From contig JAAZNX010000087.1 in the NCBI GenBank assembly GCA_012798025.1, positions 1 through 19,918 of the forward strand: a DNA stretch of 19,918 nucleotides, in the 5' to 3' direction. This stretch comes from Methanothrix sp. Lineage in GTDB: Archaea > Halobacteriota > Methanosarcinia > Methanotrichales > Methanotrichaceae. Positions 13,365-18,364 of the stretch are shown in pieces (within the stretch, counting starts at the first letter, position 1; every line of letters starts with the position of its first letter). The notes under the pieces were generated by a model. That model did no database searches. It saw only the letters and a list, made by a program, of their open reading frames with translations, and was not told the DNA's origin. Made by a program: the position numbers and the translations under genes.

Positions 13365-14429
13365 ATGAAGGTCGCAGTCATCGGAGGTGGTGTGGGTGGG
13401 GCAGAGCTGATAAGGGTTGCCTTTCCAGGCCCTCTGAAATTCACCCTAATCGAGCCCAAGAGGCAAATTGAGATGCAGGCATTGTACCCGGAGTACCTGG
13501 GCGGAGTTGCAAGGCTCAAGGAGCTGACTGCACCGCTCAAGCCTTTTTGCGAGCGAACGGGCACCGTTCATGTTCAGGAAAAGGCTTTGCGTCTGGAAGG
13601 AAACACAGTGGTCTGTGAGAAATCTCGCGTTCCGTTTGACTGTGCAGTGATTGCAACTGGCGCGGAGCAGAACTACTTCGGCATCAAGGGCGTGGAGAAC
13701 ACCTTCTCCATCAATACCCTGGAGGAGACAAAAAGGGCGCGAAGGTTCGTAGAGGACATGAACCCTGAGCGCATTATGATCATGGGTTCGGGCCTGACAG
13801 GCGTTGAGGCAGCGTCCATTCTCGCGGAGAGCCTTGATGCCAGCATCTACATCATCGAGGCCAGGGAGAGGGTCCTTCCTCTGTTCTCGCCTCAAACTTC
13901 AGCGCTTGTGGAAAAGGCGCTTTCCAAAAAAGGTGTGAACATCCTCACCTCCACCATGGTCTGCGAGATTAAGAAGGACTGCATAATGTTCGCAGACGGT
14001 ACCTGCCTGGACTGTGACATGGCCATTTGGACTGCAGGCGTCAAGCCGTCCAAGTTCGTTCAAGATCTCGATCTGCCCAAGAAGAACGGTTGGATTCTGG
14101 TGGACGAGTTCCTGCGCGCCAGGGATAATATCTTCGCCATCGGCGATGCTGCTTGGATTGAGATAGACGGCAAGCTGGCCACCAAGACAGGCCTTGAGGC
14201 AGAACGTCATGCGAAGCACGTTGCCGAGAATCTCGTGCGTCTGGCTGAGGGCAAACCAATGGAGAAGTATGCTATTCGCGCCAGCACGGACAATCAGGTG
14301 GCGCTCATATCTCTTGGCAGCGACTGCGCCGTGGGTGTGGTGGGAAAGATGTGCATCGGCGCACCGACCAGGTTGATCTACTCCCTCAAGAGCTGGATCG
14401 ATAAGTCCTTTATCAAAAGATTCAAGTGA
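13365..14429 (+). CDS. FAD-dependent pyridine nucleotide oxidoreductase, NDH-2-like
   Basis: 354 residues with two Rossmann folds. The FAD-binding loop is VAVIGGGVGGAEL (4-15), with a later CAVIATGAE segment; the NAD(P)H-binding loop is MIMGSGLTGVEAA (138-150); the second FAD motif is IFAIGDAAW with D261. The pattern matches type II NADH dehydrogenase / COG1252 proteins, which pass electrons from NAD(P)H to quinones. The C-terminus ends in an amphipathic basic segment (RLIYSLKSWIDKSFIKRF), like the peripheral membrane anchor of NDH-2 enzymes. Methanogens generally use F420H2 or ferredoxin and methanophenazine, so the true donor and acceptor are uncertain. Possible GAGGT Shine-Dalgarno lies far upstream (about 13348). 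Monocistronic; ends in a strong hairpin. Confidence 0.82.
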   Translation: MKVAVIGGGVGGAELIRVAFPGPLKFTLIEPKRQIEMQALYPEYLGGVARLKELTAPLKPFCERTGTVHVQEKALRLEGNTVVCEKSRVPFDCAVIATGAEQNYFGIKGVENTFSINTLEETKRARRFVEDMNPERIMIMGSGLTGVEAASILAESLDASIYIIEARERVLPLFSPQTSALVEKALSKKGVNILTSTMVCEIKKDCIMFADGTCLDCDMAIWTAGVKPSKFVQDLDLPKKNGWILVDEFLRARDNIFAIGDAAWIEIDGKLATKTGLEAERHAKHVAENLVRLAEGKPMEKYAIRASTDNQVALISLGSDCAVGVVGKMCIGAPTRLIYSLKSWIDKSFIKRFK

Positions 14430-14468: not shown

Positions 14469-15344
14469 TTATCCGAGCACTAGATGCTTATTATAGTTGA
14501 GCACATCTGCCATAGTTTCTACTCCCTTCACCGAATGCGGGAAGTTGGTGAAGATGACGCGCTTCGCATTGATGCCCTTGTCCTTCAGTGCTTCCTCAAT
14601 GCCTTTGGCAAGCTCTCCTGACTGCATGTTCTCGATGATATAGGCGACGTCCTTATACTTGTCCGGATTGGCATTGATGTCGTCTACGACCTTGGCAGCG
14701 GTCTTGGTGCCATTCATGTAGAACTCAGGTGCGAATACGTTCACCACATCCATTCCCAGCCAGCTCTTGACGGGATCCTGCTGCCAGACCATTACAATGA
14801 CCTTCGTCTGGTTCAGCTTCTTCTTCTCGTCTTCAGTCGGCTCCACTGCATCAAACGTCTTGGTGTAGTTGACATAGCGCTGCTCGTAGTAGGTCTTGTT
14901 CGTCGGATCCCTCTCAACCAGCCATCCCTCTACCTGTTCAGCCAGCCGCTTGGAGTTGGTGGGCGTGTTCCATCCGGATAGTTTGGAGATGGTATACCAC
15001 TCAACTGAACGATTGTAGTTGGCTGCCAGGAAATCCTTCACAGCAGGCATGTTATACTGCCTGTCGTTGCTGTCGTTGTAGGCGACGAACATATTTGCGC
15101 TCTCAATGAAGTCCTTGTTGAGCTGGATGCGATTGGGGATTATATCGGACTGCAGGTGCGGGCAAATGGTTGGATCGGCAATGGATATGGCCTCAACATT
15201 GTCGCCGCCGATGAAGATTATGGGGTCCATCAAAACACTGGTGGTGCATACGACCTTGAGCGCTGCACTTCCTGAAACGGCTGGGACGATCAGAAGGATC
15301 GCTACCAGCAGCGTGATTATGCTGCAATATCTATTGTTTAACAT
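14469..15344 (-). CDS. ABC transporter substrate-binding protein, TroA/ZnuA-like but lacking canonical metal ligands
   Basis: 291 residues. A signal peptide is clear (hydrophobic 9-22, cleavage expected after AVSGSA near 26-27); there is no lipobox Cys, so it is either secreted or held by its N-terminal helix. The mature protein begins LKVVCTTSVLMDPIIFIGGD, typical of cluster A-I metal-binding proteins. Where the family has DPHxYEPxPSD this protein has DPTICPHLQSD (57-67), so the first His ligand is Thr59. At the HxWLDPxN site it has SGWNTPTNS (123-131), and at the HxAFxYFA site WQQDPVKSW (187-195). Only His63, His270 and His287 occur in the whole protein. Last gene of the fmdE-like/ABC/DUF169 operon. 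GGAG precedes the ATG by about four bases. Substrate unknown. Confidence 0.82.
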   Translation of the reverse strand: MLNNRYCSIITLLVAILLIVPAVSGSAALKVVCTTSVLMDPIIFIGGDNVEAISIADPTICPHLQSDIIPNRIQLNKDFIESANMFVAYNDSNDRQYNMPAVKDFLAANYNRSVEWYTISKLSGWNTPTNSKRLAEQVEGWLVERDPTNKTYYEQRYVNYTKTFDAVEPTEDEKKKLNQTKVIVMVWQQDPVKSWLGMDVVNVFAPEFYMNGTKTAAKVVDDINANPDKYKDVAYIIENMQSGELAKGIEEALKDKGINAKRVIFTNFPHSVKGVETMADVLNYNKHLVLG

Positions 15345-15359
15345 AAGCTCCGGATGGTA

Positions 15360-16154
15360 TTACGAACTATTTAAGAGTTGCCACTTTATTACACACTTTG
15401 GGAGAACCAAGCAATATCGGCAAGAAAAGACTGCTTTGCGCATTCTGCCATCATCCTGGCCATCTTCTCTGAAATTCCGATCACCAAACACCCCTTTGGG
15501 CAGCCAAAAGCTTGCAGATGGGTCAGAAGGTCCCACGAATAGCATATCAGGTGGTGCATTTTCCGCCATGCCTGCTGGATAGGTGATCATGGTCGCGCAC
15601 GATGGCCCCCGGGGGATAGAAACCAGGTTGAAGACATCGCTGCTTGCGAAATGGGCCAGAGCGCATAGATTGCGAATCTGCTCGCCGCTGGCAAAGCAGA
15701 CGAGACATCTGACGCCCCGGTCATCCTGCAAACCTTCGCAGCGGCTCATCACGACATATCTGCCCAAGGGCACAACTTTTCCAATGCTGCTAATGGTCTT
15801 CTGTGCAATTTCGCGACTCTTCTTCAGGCGTTTGGGCACGAAGCCTTTCAAGTCCTCAGATCCGGATGCCAGCAGGCTCATCAGCCCGTGATCGAAGGAC
15901 CTGTATCCGAACCATGCCGGTCCGCCCATGCAGCGGCAAAAGGACTGATCCTGCTCGTACCCTGCATAAAGCGGTCCGCAAATTTTGCCAGTAGCCATTT
16001 GATACATGGCAGATGCGAGGCAGCCACTTATGGACGATGTCCGAACGCCGCTTTCCGGGATTCTCTCAGAGCCGTACACGCACACGATCTGAGTTTCCAG
16101 GTTCACTGAGTCTGCCAGTATGCGGCCAATCTCTTTGATGGTTAACTCTGGCAT
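15360..16154 (-). CDS. DUF169 family protein, probable frameshift near the 3' end
   Basis: 264 residues as a continuous frame. DUF169 is an uncharacterised, mainly archaeal family. Recognisable parts: KICGPLYAGYEQD (about 57-69), VPLGRYVVMSRCEGL, ALAHFASSDVFN, IPRGPSCATMITYPAGMAENAPPDMLF and SDPSASFWLPKGVFGDR (about 210-226), the last two typical of the family. After GDR the frame becomes cysteine-rich and unlike DUF169. One base to the side (codons from 15475) the strand reads ISEKMARMMAECAKQSFL then ADIAW, a good family ending, and stops at 15389-15391. The real product is thus probably 15389-16154 with a one-base error or mutation near 15476. Start is six bases after the permease stop; no clear Shine-Dalgarno. 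Function not known. Confidence 0.75.
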   Translation of the reverse strand: MPELTIKEIGRILADSVNLETQIVCVYGSERIPESGVRTSSISGCLASAMYQMATGKICGPLYAGYEQDQSFCRCMGGPAWFGYRSFDHGLMSLLASGSEDLKGFVPKRLKKSREIAQKTISSIGKVVPLGRYVVMSRCEGLQDDRGVRCLVCFASGEQIRNLCALAHFASSDVFNLVSIPRGPSCATMITYPAGMAENAPPDMLFVGPSDPSASFWLPKGVFGDRNFREDGQDDGRMRKAVFSCRYCLVLPKCVIKWQLLNSS

Positions 16155-16160
16155 GTTTGA

Positions 16161-16991
16161 TCAATGTGTTCTGGTTGTAACTTTTCTCTTAGTAGATAGC
16201 ATCACAGCCAGCCCGAAGGTGCCCGTCAGGAGCAGGGCGACCAGGGGCGCTATTGGCAAAGTGTATTCAAACCCCGCCCAAACGCCGAAGGCGCTCACAA
16301 GCAGAGCCACCAGTGGTGCTACAATGAACATGCTCCTCACATCGAAGCAGAACTGGCTGGCAATGGAGGCAGGCGTCACAAGCCAGACGAATATCAGAAG
16401 CCCTCCAACGATGTTGAGGCACAAAGCTACTGAAAGCGCTATGATAAACAGCAAAATATAATAGACCACCTGAACTCGCATCCCGGAGGCCTGAGCTATC
16501 TTCATGTTGAACATGATGGCACAGATCTCTTTGTAGAAGAGCAGCACGAAGATGATTGTGAGGAGCGAGACCGCAGCCAGTGCATAAATCTCCTCCCTGT
16601 AAAGCGAGATGACATCTCCAAACAGCAAGCTGCTTGCGGAGAGACCTTTGCCCAGGTACTGCATGTAAGAGATGAGAAAGATGGCCAAGGCCATGCAAAG
16701 GGCGAAGAGCACACCCAGCGTTGCATCCGCTGCCATCTTGGCTTTGTCGCTAATGGGCCCTATGAGGGCCGCCACTCCCACGCTGAAAGCGATGGCAGCC
16801 ATCTGGGCGTTCGTCTCCAGGAACATACCGATAGATGCGCCTGCGAACGCTGCATGGGACATTGTGAAGCCGATGGAGGCGAGGTTCATCCGGGATATCA
16901 CAACGCCAAGGATGCTGCAAGCGATGGAGGCGAATGCCATTGCCTCCACCGCATGGCACACAACGTTGTTCTGAATCAGCGGCTCTAGCAT
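16161..16991 (-). CDS. ABC transporter permease, ZnuB/MntB-like
   Basis: 276 residues, strongly hydrophobic with about eight membrane segments. Family features of metal-type (ABC-3) permeases: VCHAVEAMAFASIACSILG, MNLASIGFTMSHAAFAGASIG (the SDAISHAALPG-like motif), ADATLGVLFALCMALAIFL, SSLLFGDVISL, MRVQVVYYILLFIIALSVAL and NIVGGLLIFVWLVTPASIASQF (the VGxLLVxALLxxPAATA-like motif). It would form the membrane channel for the ATPase at 16997 and the binding protein at 14469. It is five bases from the ATPase stop and six from the DUF169 start, so the operon is tight. The transported compound is inferred to be unusual from the binding protein. Confidence 0.88.
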   Translation of the reverse strand: MLEPLIQNNVVCHAVEAMAFASIACSILGVVISRMNLASIGFTMSHAAFAGASIGMFLETNAQMAAIAFSVGVAALIGPISDKAKMAADATLGVLFALCMALAIFLISYMQYLGKGLSASSLLFGDVISLYREEIYALAAVSLLTIIFVLLFYKEICAIMFNMKIAQASGMRVQVVYYILLFIIALSVALCLNIVGGLLIFVWLVTPASIASQFCFDVRSMFIVAPLVALLVSAFGVWAGFEYTLPIAPLVALLLTGTFGLAVMLSTKRKVTTRTH

Positions 16992-16996
16992 TTATA

Positions 16997-17725
16997 TCAC
17001 TGCTTCAAAGAGGACTTGCGAACGATGTCTTCCACAGCTTGGGCTGGACAACAAATGTCTTTGGTAATTCTGCCTTCATTCATCACCACCAGGTGAATGC
17101 GAATATCGGGAAGCCCGTCGAATGCATGCGATACGATAACTATCGGCGTGCCGCCTTTCACCAGGTCCAAGAGAATGGCCTGCAGATACTCTCTGGCGGA
17201 AAAATCTAGATTGCTGAAGGGCTCGTCGAGCAGCATGACCTCCGGCTCCTTTGCCAGGTTATGAGCGATCATCACCTTCTGCTGCTGGCCGCCGCTCAAA
17301 GTTCCGATGGTCTTTTGTGCCAGATCTTCGATGCCCACCAGCCGAATGGCCCTCTCGGCTGCTTTGTAGTCCTCTTCCAATGGTCTCTTCAACAAACCCA
17401 ATCGGCCATAGCGTCCCATCATCACCACCTGCTGCGTGGTGAAGGGCGTAAATGGATCGAAGTAAAAGTTCTGCACGACATAGCCCACCTTTTTTCGCAC
17501 ATCGTGGCCGCTACGGCGTACATCGAAACCACATACATTTGCTCTGCCGTGAGTGATCTTCACCAGGCCATTTATGGACTCAAGGAGCGTCGTCTTTCCT
17601 GCGCTGTTTGGACCGCCGATGACCACGTACTCTCCTCGGCCTATGTTAAGCGTAAGGTCCCTGATGATGGGCTTGTCGTCTCCCTCGTAGGCTGTGTAGA
17701 TGCCCTCAAGCTCAATGATGCTCAA
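16997..17725 (-). CDS. ABC transporter ATP-binding protein, ZnuC/MntA-like
   Basis: About 242 residues from a TTG start. All ABC motifs are present: Walker A GGPNSAGKTT, Q-loop YVVQNFYFDPF, signature LSGGQQQKV, Walker B VMLLDEPFSNLD, and H-loop IVIVSHA. The class is that of the metal-ion importers. Start choice: domain homology begins at IIELEGIYTAYEG, and TTG at 17725-17723 is the closest usable start; it overlaps the end of the fmdE-like gene by 14 bases. An ATG at 17800 is in frame but lies deep inside that gene and its translation is cysteine/arginine-rich with no family similarity. Sequence after Walker A is standard; no regulatory C-terminal domain is seen. Confidence 0.88.
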   Translation of the reverse strand: MSIIELEGIYTAYEGDDKPIIRDLTLNIGRGEYVVIGGPNSAGKTTLLESINGLVKITHGRANVCGFDVRRSGHDVRKKVGYVVQNFYFDPFTPFTTQQVVMMGRYGRLGLLKRPLEEDYKAAERAIRLVGIEDLAQKTIGTLSGGQQQKVMIAHNLAKEPEVMLLDEPFSNLDFSAREYLQAILLDLVKGGTPIVIVSHAFDGLPDIRIHLVVMNEGRITKDICCPAQAVEDIVRKSSLKQ

Positions 17726-18173
17726 TTCCCAGCACCCGAAAAGAGGCCTCGAACAGGTCCGAGTCTGCCATGCTGTACATCTCCTCTGCCATGCTCTCAA
17801 CGAGCCTGGGATAGTCGTGATCTTCCTGAGGCAGTTCTTTAAAGGGCTTTGGAATCAATGTCAGCTTTTTTTCTCCATATGTGAAGATGCATCGGATCTC
17901 TTTGGATGCGATGATCTCAATATTTCTCTTGCCCAAGGTACAGCCACTGCCTATCTGTATGCCGTCTGCCATGCATGATTCTGGTGGTGTCCCGGCACAA
18001 TAGACCGAAGCGCTCATCTGAAAGGGATCGGTGCAGAAATTTCGCTTTGCATATCTTCCCATTCTGTAACCCAGGACTATGAATGGACCAAGATGGCCGT
18101 GGAAAGCCGCCAGATCCTCGATGGAATACTCTTTTTCGATGCCTGTGTGCCTGCATCCGTCAGATTTGTTCAT
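17712..18173 (-). CDS. FmdE family protein (formylmethanofuran dehydrogenase subunit E-like)
   Basis: 153 residues, a single FmdE domain. Signature: FHGHLGPFIVLGYRMGRYA (24-42; H25 and H27 likely metal ligands), then PPESCMADGIQIGSGCTLGKRNIEI (63-87; C67 and C78), the C-x2-DxIQ-x3-GCTxGxxN pattern of the family. The C-terminal zinc-finger (TraR-like) part of longer FmdE proteins is absent. FmdE was named from the molybdenum formylmethanofuran dehydrogenase operon of methanogens, but its function is unproven and it is not part of the purified enzyme. Here it is the first gene of a five-gene ABC operon; no other fmd/fwd gene is near. GGGAGG (18191-18186) lies 12 bases upstream of the ATG, a rather long gap. 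Confidence 0.85.
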   Translation of the reverse strand: MNKSDGCRHTGIEKEYSIEDLAAFHGHLGPFIVLGYRMGRYAKRNFCTDPFQMSASVYCAGTPPESCMADGIQIGSGCTLGKRNIEIIASKEIRCIFTYGEKKLTLIPKPFKELPQEDHDYPRLVESMAEEMYSMADSDLFEASFRVLGIEHH

Positions 18174-18245
18174 TGATTATTATGGCCTCCCAACGCTAGT
18201 TCTTTTCTGTTAGAATACACCCGATATTACTTATGAACTTGTTGC

Positions 18246-18283
18246 ATGTTTAATTAACATAACTATCGTTAAATAGATGTTAA
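18246..18283. repeat. Operator-like nested inverted repeat upstream of the fmdE-like/ABC operon
   Basis: TTAACAT (18254-18260) faces ATGTTAA (18277-18283), and inside them CTAT (18263-18266) faces ATAG (18273-18276), leaving a six-base loop CGTTAA and a two-base bulge. A further ATGTT (18246-18250) faces AACAT (18256-18260) in the same stretch. The element lies between the TATA box at 18307-18316 and the gene start, around and just after the predicted transcript start, a usual place for an archaeal repressor. Confidence 0.45.
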
Positions 18284-18301
18284 TTTCAGGAGGCGAATCG
18301 A

Positions 18302-18317
18302 TAAAAATTTATAAAAG
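18302..18317 (-). promoter_or_regulatory. TATA box of the fmdE-like/ABC operon
   Basis: The minus strand reads CTTTTATAAATTTTTA (18317-18302). The expected transcript start is about 18285, giving a leader of around 110 bases that contains the inverted repeat. It lies just after the terminator of the ribosomal operon, which is read in the same direction. Confidence 0.55.
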
Positions 18318-18330
18318 CAAAAAATAATTA

Positions 18331-18352
18331 GGCGCAAAAAGAATCATGCGCC
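18331..18352 (-). terminator. Terminator after rps7
   Basis: On the minus strand GGCGCA pairs with TGCGCC around a ten-base loop, directly followed by TAATTATTTTTTGC, a U-rich tract in the RNA. It lies 12 bases after the rps7 stop and would end the ribosomal transcript before the next operon's promoter. Confidence 0.65.
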
Positions 18353-18364
18353 ACAGTTTTTCGC

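Follow-up and report, generated by a model that had tools for sequence, protein, structure and literature searches.

We analysed a contig of 19,918 nucleotides from Methanothrix sp. (GenBank assembly GCA_012798025.1, contig JAAZNX010000087.1; the whole stretch is called the window below) and found that it carries an operon in which the genes of a ZnuABC-like ATP-binding cassette (ABC) importer are combined with genes encoding an FmdE-like protein and a DUF169 protein. The core of this operon consists of four genes, FmdE-ATPase-permease-binding protein, with DUF169 as an extra limited to some lineages. The binding protein combines the ZnuA fold with changed metal ligands. We tentatively propose, with somewhat less than even confidence, that the product of the operon is a ZnuABC/TroA-superfamily importer with a changed metal site, from which a chelator-borne metal, nickel being the best guess, would pass to the FmdE-like protein as acceptor and then to nickel enzyme assembly.

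A conserved importer operon with an FmdE gene built in

The genes follow one another in the order FmdE-like protein, ATPase, permease, DUF169 and binding protein, as the first-pass annotation had described, and all five open reading frames are on the minus strand. Coordinates refer to the window:

14469..15344, minus strand: ZnuA/TroA-type binding protein (Pfam ZnuA, E 3.6e-15)
15360..16154, minus strand: DUF169 protein of 264 amino acids (PF02596, COG2043; Pfam E 2.7e-20)
16161..16991, minus strand: ABC-3 family permease of 276 amino acids, ZnuB/AztB-like (Pfam ABC-3, E 5.7e-46)
16997..17725, minus strand: ABC transporter ATPase of 242 amino acids, ZnuC-like, with a TTG start at 17725 (Pfam ABC_tran, E 3.3e-28)
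17712..18173, minus strand: FmdE-like protein of 153 amino acids (PF02663; Pfam E 9.6e-20)
18174..18364, minus strand: stretch between the S7 gene and the operon with the putative promoter (judged by eye from the sequences before 42 loci)

All five proteins exceeded the curated Pfam cut-offs, and their closest named homologues among the matches listed were from Methanothrix. The window is contig C36 of its genome (G000), the assembly of which is 87.65% complete. The tight packing described earlier was found for most of the operon, with a 14-base overlap between the FmdE and ATPase genes and gaps of 5 and 6 bases before and after the permease gene; the last gap, in front of the binding protein gene, is 15 bases and not 5–6. 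The overlap is 4 bases in the two closest relatives versus 14 in the window, and the last residues of the window FmdE are unlike those of the same two relatives. Orthologues of the ATPase align with it from residue 1, the TTG start. The Pfam matches to ABC_tran and ABC-3 bore out the likeness of ATPase and permease to ZnuC and ZnuB. The best NCBIfam match of the permease, AztB (1.5e-29), was below that model's cut-off, and none of the NCBIfam transporter matches shown reached a curated cut-off.

To describe the conservation of the operon, we scanned named genomes with an alignment of the binding protein and obtained 56 loci, some of which are two contigs of one assembly and which partly overlap the other genomes compared here (G numbers). 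The genes for FmdE, ATPase, permease and binding protein were found in this order in 42 of the 56 loci, 35 of them uninterrupted and 7 with DUF169 inserted. The remaining loci comprised three with ATPase-permease-binding protein, one with ATPase-permease-DUF169-binding protein, one with FmdE after the binding protein and nine with the binding protein only; contig ends cut seven loci (L051, L057, L060, L065, L098, L100 and L103), and L087 was excluded from one alignment (A3). The hosts belonged to Methanothrix/Methanosaeta, Methanocrinis, Methanoculleus, Methanolinea, Methanoregula, Methanofollis, Methanospirillum and less resolved relatives, so that the core operon is found in Methanotrichaceae and Methanomicrobiales, and proteins of Methanocella conradii were among the matches listed in the homologue searches (120 of 410 and 120 of 378). 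Because the five genes recur in the same order in relatives and the four-gene core recurs in these 42 loci, the arrangement goes beyond chance, and the five genes are confirmed, on the evidence of the genes themselves, as a genuine operon. The idea that FmdE is built into a conserved operon of the ZnuB/ZnuC type was therefore upheld, and the proposed comparison of neighbours in related genomes, when run, found the gene content conserved.

The ATPase and permease accompany the binding protein in 47 of the 56 loci. Some loci hold the binding protein without the other operon genes (L052, L053 and L093), and in two genomes two binding-protein domains are fused in tandem at the operon end, in one frame of ~790–795 amino acids (G329, L143:6671-9034; G287, L144; ~795 amino acids). 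Both would suit a system for sensing or sequestering a metal, with a binding protein that gives a signal and does not transport. We regard such a system as highly improbable, given the permease and ATPase in those 47 loci and given that the source genome of L052, G023, carries the other genes on a separate contig.

The binding protein has the ZnuA fold and an altered metal site

The binding protein has a hydrophobic N-terminus and is probably exported. Its structure model (mean predicted local distance difference test score 92.1) matched the folds of YfeA, PsaA, MntC and ZnuA, and mean column identity was 72% over 17 sequences and 55% over 18 wider sequences. The site residues are C61-P62-H63, S123, W125, W187-Q188, D190 and N267. 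Alignments with EfaA and MntA placed H63 on the first ligand and no histidine on the histidine of the DPHxW motif. Among 133 operon-type binding proteins, H63 was kept in 131, whereas position 123 was serine in 117 and histidine in none, so the second metal histidine is lost. Q188 and N267 were present in all 133, asparagine thus replacing the aspartate ligand throughout; we take N267 to be aligned with the FTD aspartate of PsaA-like proteins. The place of the third ligand fell on Q188 by strand register and on residue 190, which is aspartate or glutamate in 131 of the 133, by helix register, one comparison supporting each. The pocket also contains invariant tryptophans. The operon binding protein therefore has the ZnuA fold without the usual site of three histidines, or of two histidines plus glutamate and aspartate.

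A survey of 392 genomes of the phylum gave matches to the binding protein at 1e-10 in 55 genomes and at 1e-50 or better in 39, and these 39 were the set for all linkage counts below. A separate canonical ZnuA was found in 30 of the 39 (4e-49 or better), and the three metal histidines were present in all 30 (27 by a strict pattern, 3 by eye); an earlier pass gave an open reading frame for 19 of the 30, 2 of them out of frame, and the final reading covered all 30. Because the site is altered and canonical three-histidine ZnuA proteins are encoded separately in most of the genomes, the operon appears to be a paralogue with another task and, as far as its sequences tell, is not an ordinary zinc importer.

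The FmdE-like protein retains most of a metal site

The FmdE-like protein scored 71.5 bits against a curated PF02663 cut-off of 22.9. Aligned to the structures 2glz and 2gvi, its residues H25, H27, C67, D70 and Q73 correspond to H15, H17, C55, D58 and Q61 of 2glz. According to the accessible text of the structural report, the site His15, His17, Cys19 and Cys55 of 2glz binds zinc with some nickel, and the second cysteine of the site holds an unexplained ligand in 2gvi (PMC2954224). Three of the four metal-site residues were kept in 16 of 16 operon-type sequences; the first site cysteine (Cys19 of 2glz) was glycine (G29) in all 16. The four-ligand FHGHxC...C site is thus not complete in the operon FmdE, and the site itself is not universal, two ligands being absent from 3d00. 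The 16 sequences share extra invariant cysteines at positions 7, 47, 59 and 78.

These results bear on the possibility that the cargo is a small non-metal organic molecule. Such an importer would be in keeping with the loss of metal ligands and the invariant aromatic residues of the binding protein, but it is quite improbable in view of the retained FmdE residues, of the CooC genes found nearby (see below), and of the report that metal-ion transporter genes adjoin the majority of PF02663 genes (Axelrod 2010, PMC2954224).

We also considered FmdE as a subunit of formylmethanofuran dehydrogenase and rejected it: neither the five genes nor the flanking genes are fmd genes, and the gene stands in an importer context in 42 of the 56 loci.

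The window genome holds three FmdE genes, namely the operon copy and copies on contigs C200 and C140. On C200 (L205), the FmdE gene is on the strand opposite to CbiM, CbiQ, an energy-coupling factor (ECF)-type ATPase and a radical S-adenosylmethionine (SAM) gene. On C140 (L216:265-3777), a CooC-like ATPase, a NikA-like binding protein (best NCBIfam match NikA, 1.3e-45, below the model's cut-off) and a 366-amino-acid FmdE-like protein are encoded side by side; the last has a hydrophobic N-terminus, is probably exported, and covers half of the FmdE profile.

Gene neighbourhoods and the possible cargo

Linkage was counted within 20 kb of the operon. CooC, which acts in nickel insertion, was near the operon in 8 of the 39 genomes (0.42 expected), and CbiM, matched in all 39, was near it in 7 (1.53 expected). 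Because both families had been picked after being seen, the discovery loci were removed, which left CooC in 3 of 32 genomes (0.29 expected, P 0.003). CooC also occurred with FmdE within 8 kb in seven genomes besides that of the window, and 11 of 29 CooC genes had within 8 kb an FmdE copy lying more than 6 kb away from the binding protein (0.64 expected). At one locus (L138, G076), a NikR above the NF002169 cut-off, a CooC-like ATPase, a CbiM above the NF008873 cut-off and a weak CbiN match surround the operon. The CooC counts used 29 of 50 rows (E 1e-50 or better), the FmdE counts 141 of 149 (8 weak second-half rows out), the NikR counts 43 of 45 (two below cut-off out), and the CbiM counts all rows except two second-piece rows of G247.

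The first-pass annotation had named an oxyanion among the possible cargoes, which found no support: none of the 39 genomes had a WtpC-like ATPase within 20 kb, against 1.67 expected, at a loose threshold of E 1e-60 or better, most matches being below the curated cut-off, which was reached in 8 of the 39. Another of its suggestions, a metal complex, is the one that we favour, and the gene context would favour nickel over tungsten or molybdenum, and less clearly over zinc or cobalt.

In the mechanism that we propose, the binding protein would hold a chelator-carried metal, at best guess nickel, through H63, perhaps the acid at position 190, and the aromatic pocket. The ABC-3 permease and the ATPase would move the metal complex inward, where the H25/H27/C67 site of the cytosolic FmdE-like protein could receive the complex or its metal and hand the metal on to nickel enzyme assembly; in some lineages DUF169 may assist.

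Several observations weigh against nickel. NikR was near the operon in 1 of 39 genomes (0.70 expected), CbiM without its discovery loci in 2 of 33 (1.13 expected, P 0.31), and none of the NikR, CbiM and CooC matches of the window genome is on the window contig. All P values presume that genes are placed uniformly and that genomes are independent, and the families had already been seen when they were chosen. In Methanoculleus and Methanolinea loci, the sequence before FmdE contains an inverted repeat, GTRGGAAATWAT-N5-TWATTTCATAC (for example L069:5885-5912; 6-16-6 geometry), with nine sites at three or fewer mismatches in ten genomes, seven of which precede the operon (in seven of the ten genomes); none of the nine, as judged by eye from the upstream sequences, is at a NikR or CbiM gene, nor was an operator common to the operon and other nickel genes found. 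Canonical ZnuA was near the operon in 4 of 39 genomes (0.48 expected), and a ZnuABC set adjoins it in G085 (L142) and G414 (L221). The third ligand of the binding protein may, moreover, be kept as the acid at 190. Finally, the accessible text of a review gives the suggestion that the Methanothermobacter NikR, encoded beside ZnuABC, responds to zinc (PMC3087415).

The operon might thus encode a second importer of zinc, or of a plain divalent metal, which takes the ion in another geometry or as a complex and whose FmdE stores or senses it. The ZnuA proximity and that suggestion about NikR would agree with this, as would the near-invariance of H63 and of the acid at 190 and the zinc in FmdE structures, one of them with some nickel (PMC2954224, accessible text). 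We nevertheless consider it unlikely: the second histidine and the aspartate are lost in the operon-type sequences, three-histidine ZnuA proteins already exist in 30 of the 39 genomes, and without G085 and G414 the ZnuA proximity falls to 2 of 37 (0.46 expected, P 0.08), the CooC enrichment being stronger.

It is improbable that the cargo is cobalt or an organic cofactor loaded with metal (a corrinoid or nickel tetrapyrrole), processed by FmdE and DUF169. The CbiM-type, FecBCD-type and TrmO-like genes in some operon flanks and the invariant tryptophans of the pocket point in this direction, but the CbiM proximity is not significant once the discovery loci are removed, ABC-3 permeases are known for metal ions, and no corrinoid or tetrapyrrole gene was recognised in the recurring flank clusters (by eye, most clusters not being scanned).

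DUF169 is an optional member of the operon

The DUF169 protein scored 73.5 bits (Pfam cut-off 27) and, used as a query, had matches in 20 of 60 related genomes. Among the genomes with matches, all five genes were found in order in G015, G012, G006, G004, G035 and G019, and G014 and G008 have the same order with a DUF169 that is broken or truncated. The locus of G007 ends at a contig end, G020 has DUF169 with a permease remnant, and G023 has four genes with the binding protein on a separate contig; five more distant copies that were inspected were all in other contexts. DUF169 was inside the operon in 8 of the 56 named loci, each time among the 47 with ATPase and permease, and lay within or next to it in 5 of the 39 genomes (G000, G023, G004, G035 and G085), some DUF169 being present anywhere in 26 of the 39. 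The earlier picture of DUF169 as an equal partner was not sustained by these counts, by the broken copies, or by the operons without DUF169 elsewhere. DUF169 is more plausibly a helper that the operon can do without, occurring in Methanothrix and in a single genome from a different family.

The tail of the window DUF169 (approximately residues 222-264; window 15360-15500) departs from the reading frame of 8 of 11 aligned relatives; the remaining three are L043, which is truncated, and L034 and L042, whose tails are unusual in themselves. In the same alignment, the G004 and G014 copies have tails peculiar to them. Because a database protein that is 95% identical across all 264 residues, and that represents 6 member sequences, carries the window tail, the tail is likely to be proper to the lineage or to one repeated assembly. 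The structure model of a relative (P0014) was confident, and no PDB fold match was found for it.

Upstream region and neighbouring genes

One TATA box had been proposed before the operon. By eye, a TTTATAAA box is located ~133 bases upstream of the FmdE start, where it is common to L048 and absent from L049, and a nearer block, GTTCATAAGTAATA, is located ~50-60 bases upstream. The box is thus present, but we place the putative promoter, by eye, at the GTTCATAAGTAATA block, because this block, unlike TTTATAAA, occurs in both L048 and L049.

Convergent with the operon, a flavoprotein gene (window 13365-14429) related to the SelD-associated oxidoreductase model, below that model's cut-off, is retained beside the operon in the two closest relatives. 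A SAM-dependent methyltransferase gene was near the operon in 22 of the 56 loci (for example L076:5133-5822); in 21 of these it is divergently oriented and lies upstream.

Comparison with known systems

Methanogens need nickel in quantity. If the operon does import nickel, many methanogen genomes carry wrong automatic labels of the zinc transporter kind, and for the FmdE family a general role beyond its name, nickel handling, becomes open to test; if it imports zinc, it is surprising in its own right that the usual ligands have changed. It is possible, though doubtful, that Methanotrichales, Methanocellales and Methanomicrobiales have in this operon a hitherto unrecognised high-affinity importer of a nickel chelate, the FmdE protein accepting the nickel in the cytosol. 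In literature searches, whose coverage mostly excluded subscription papers, no paper on this operon was recognised by title or abstract. A review states, in its accessible text, that the nickel ABC transporter of Methanothermobacter was not yet identified (PMC3087415). The general adjacency of PF02663 genes and metal transporters is already known (Axelrod 2010, PMC2954224, accessible text).

The FmdE structures 2glz, 2gvi and 3d00 share PF02663 with the operon protein; 2gvi and 3d00 have a zinc finger after the core, where the operon FmdE has no sequence for one. FpvC of the Pseudomonas aeruginosa pyoverdine system has the same fold as the operon binding protein and was solved with Ni, Mn and Fe. 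It is paired with FpvF as a chelate binder; the operon differs in that no siderophore genes were recognised at it. NikA of the E. coli NikABCDE system holds nickel as a complex through one histidine, and the metal holding proposed here, by one histidine and aromatic residues, would be alike. NikA, however, belongs to another binding-protein family (SBP_bac_5); no kinship is claimed, and NikA-like genes occur elsewhere in the window genome. The ECF-type systems NikMNQO and CbiMNQO likely share the cargo class, and the window genome has a CbiM gene next to another of its FmdE genes, but these systems have no binding protein and their membrane parts are unrelated to those of the operon. With ZnuABC, TroABCD and PsaABC the operon shares three protein families and the binding-protein fold; it differs from them in lacking the second metal histidine and the aspartate and in having, in 42 of the 56 loci, an FmdE gene in front. 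The nearest known kind, by this comparison of families and ligands, is the ZnuABC/TroABC importer, and it is on the metal site that membership fails.

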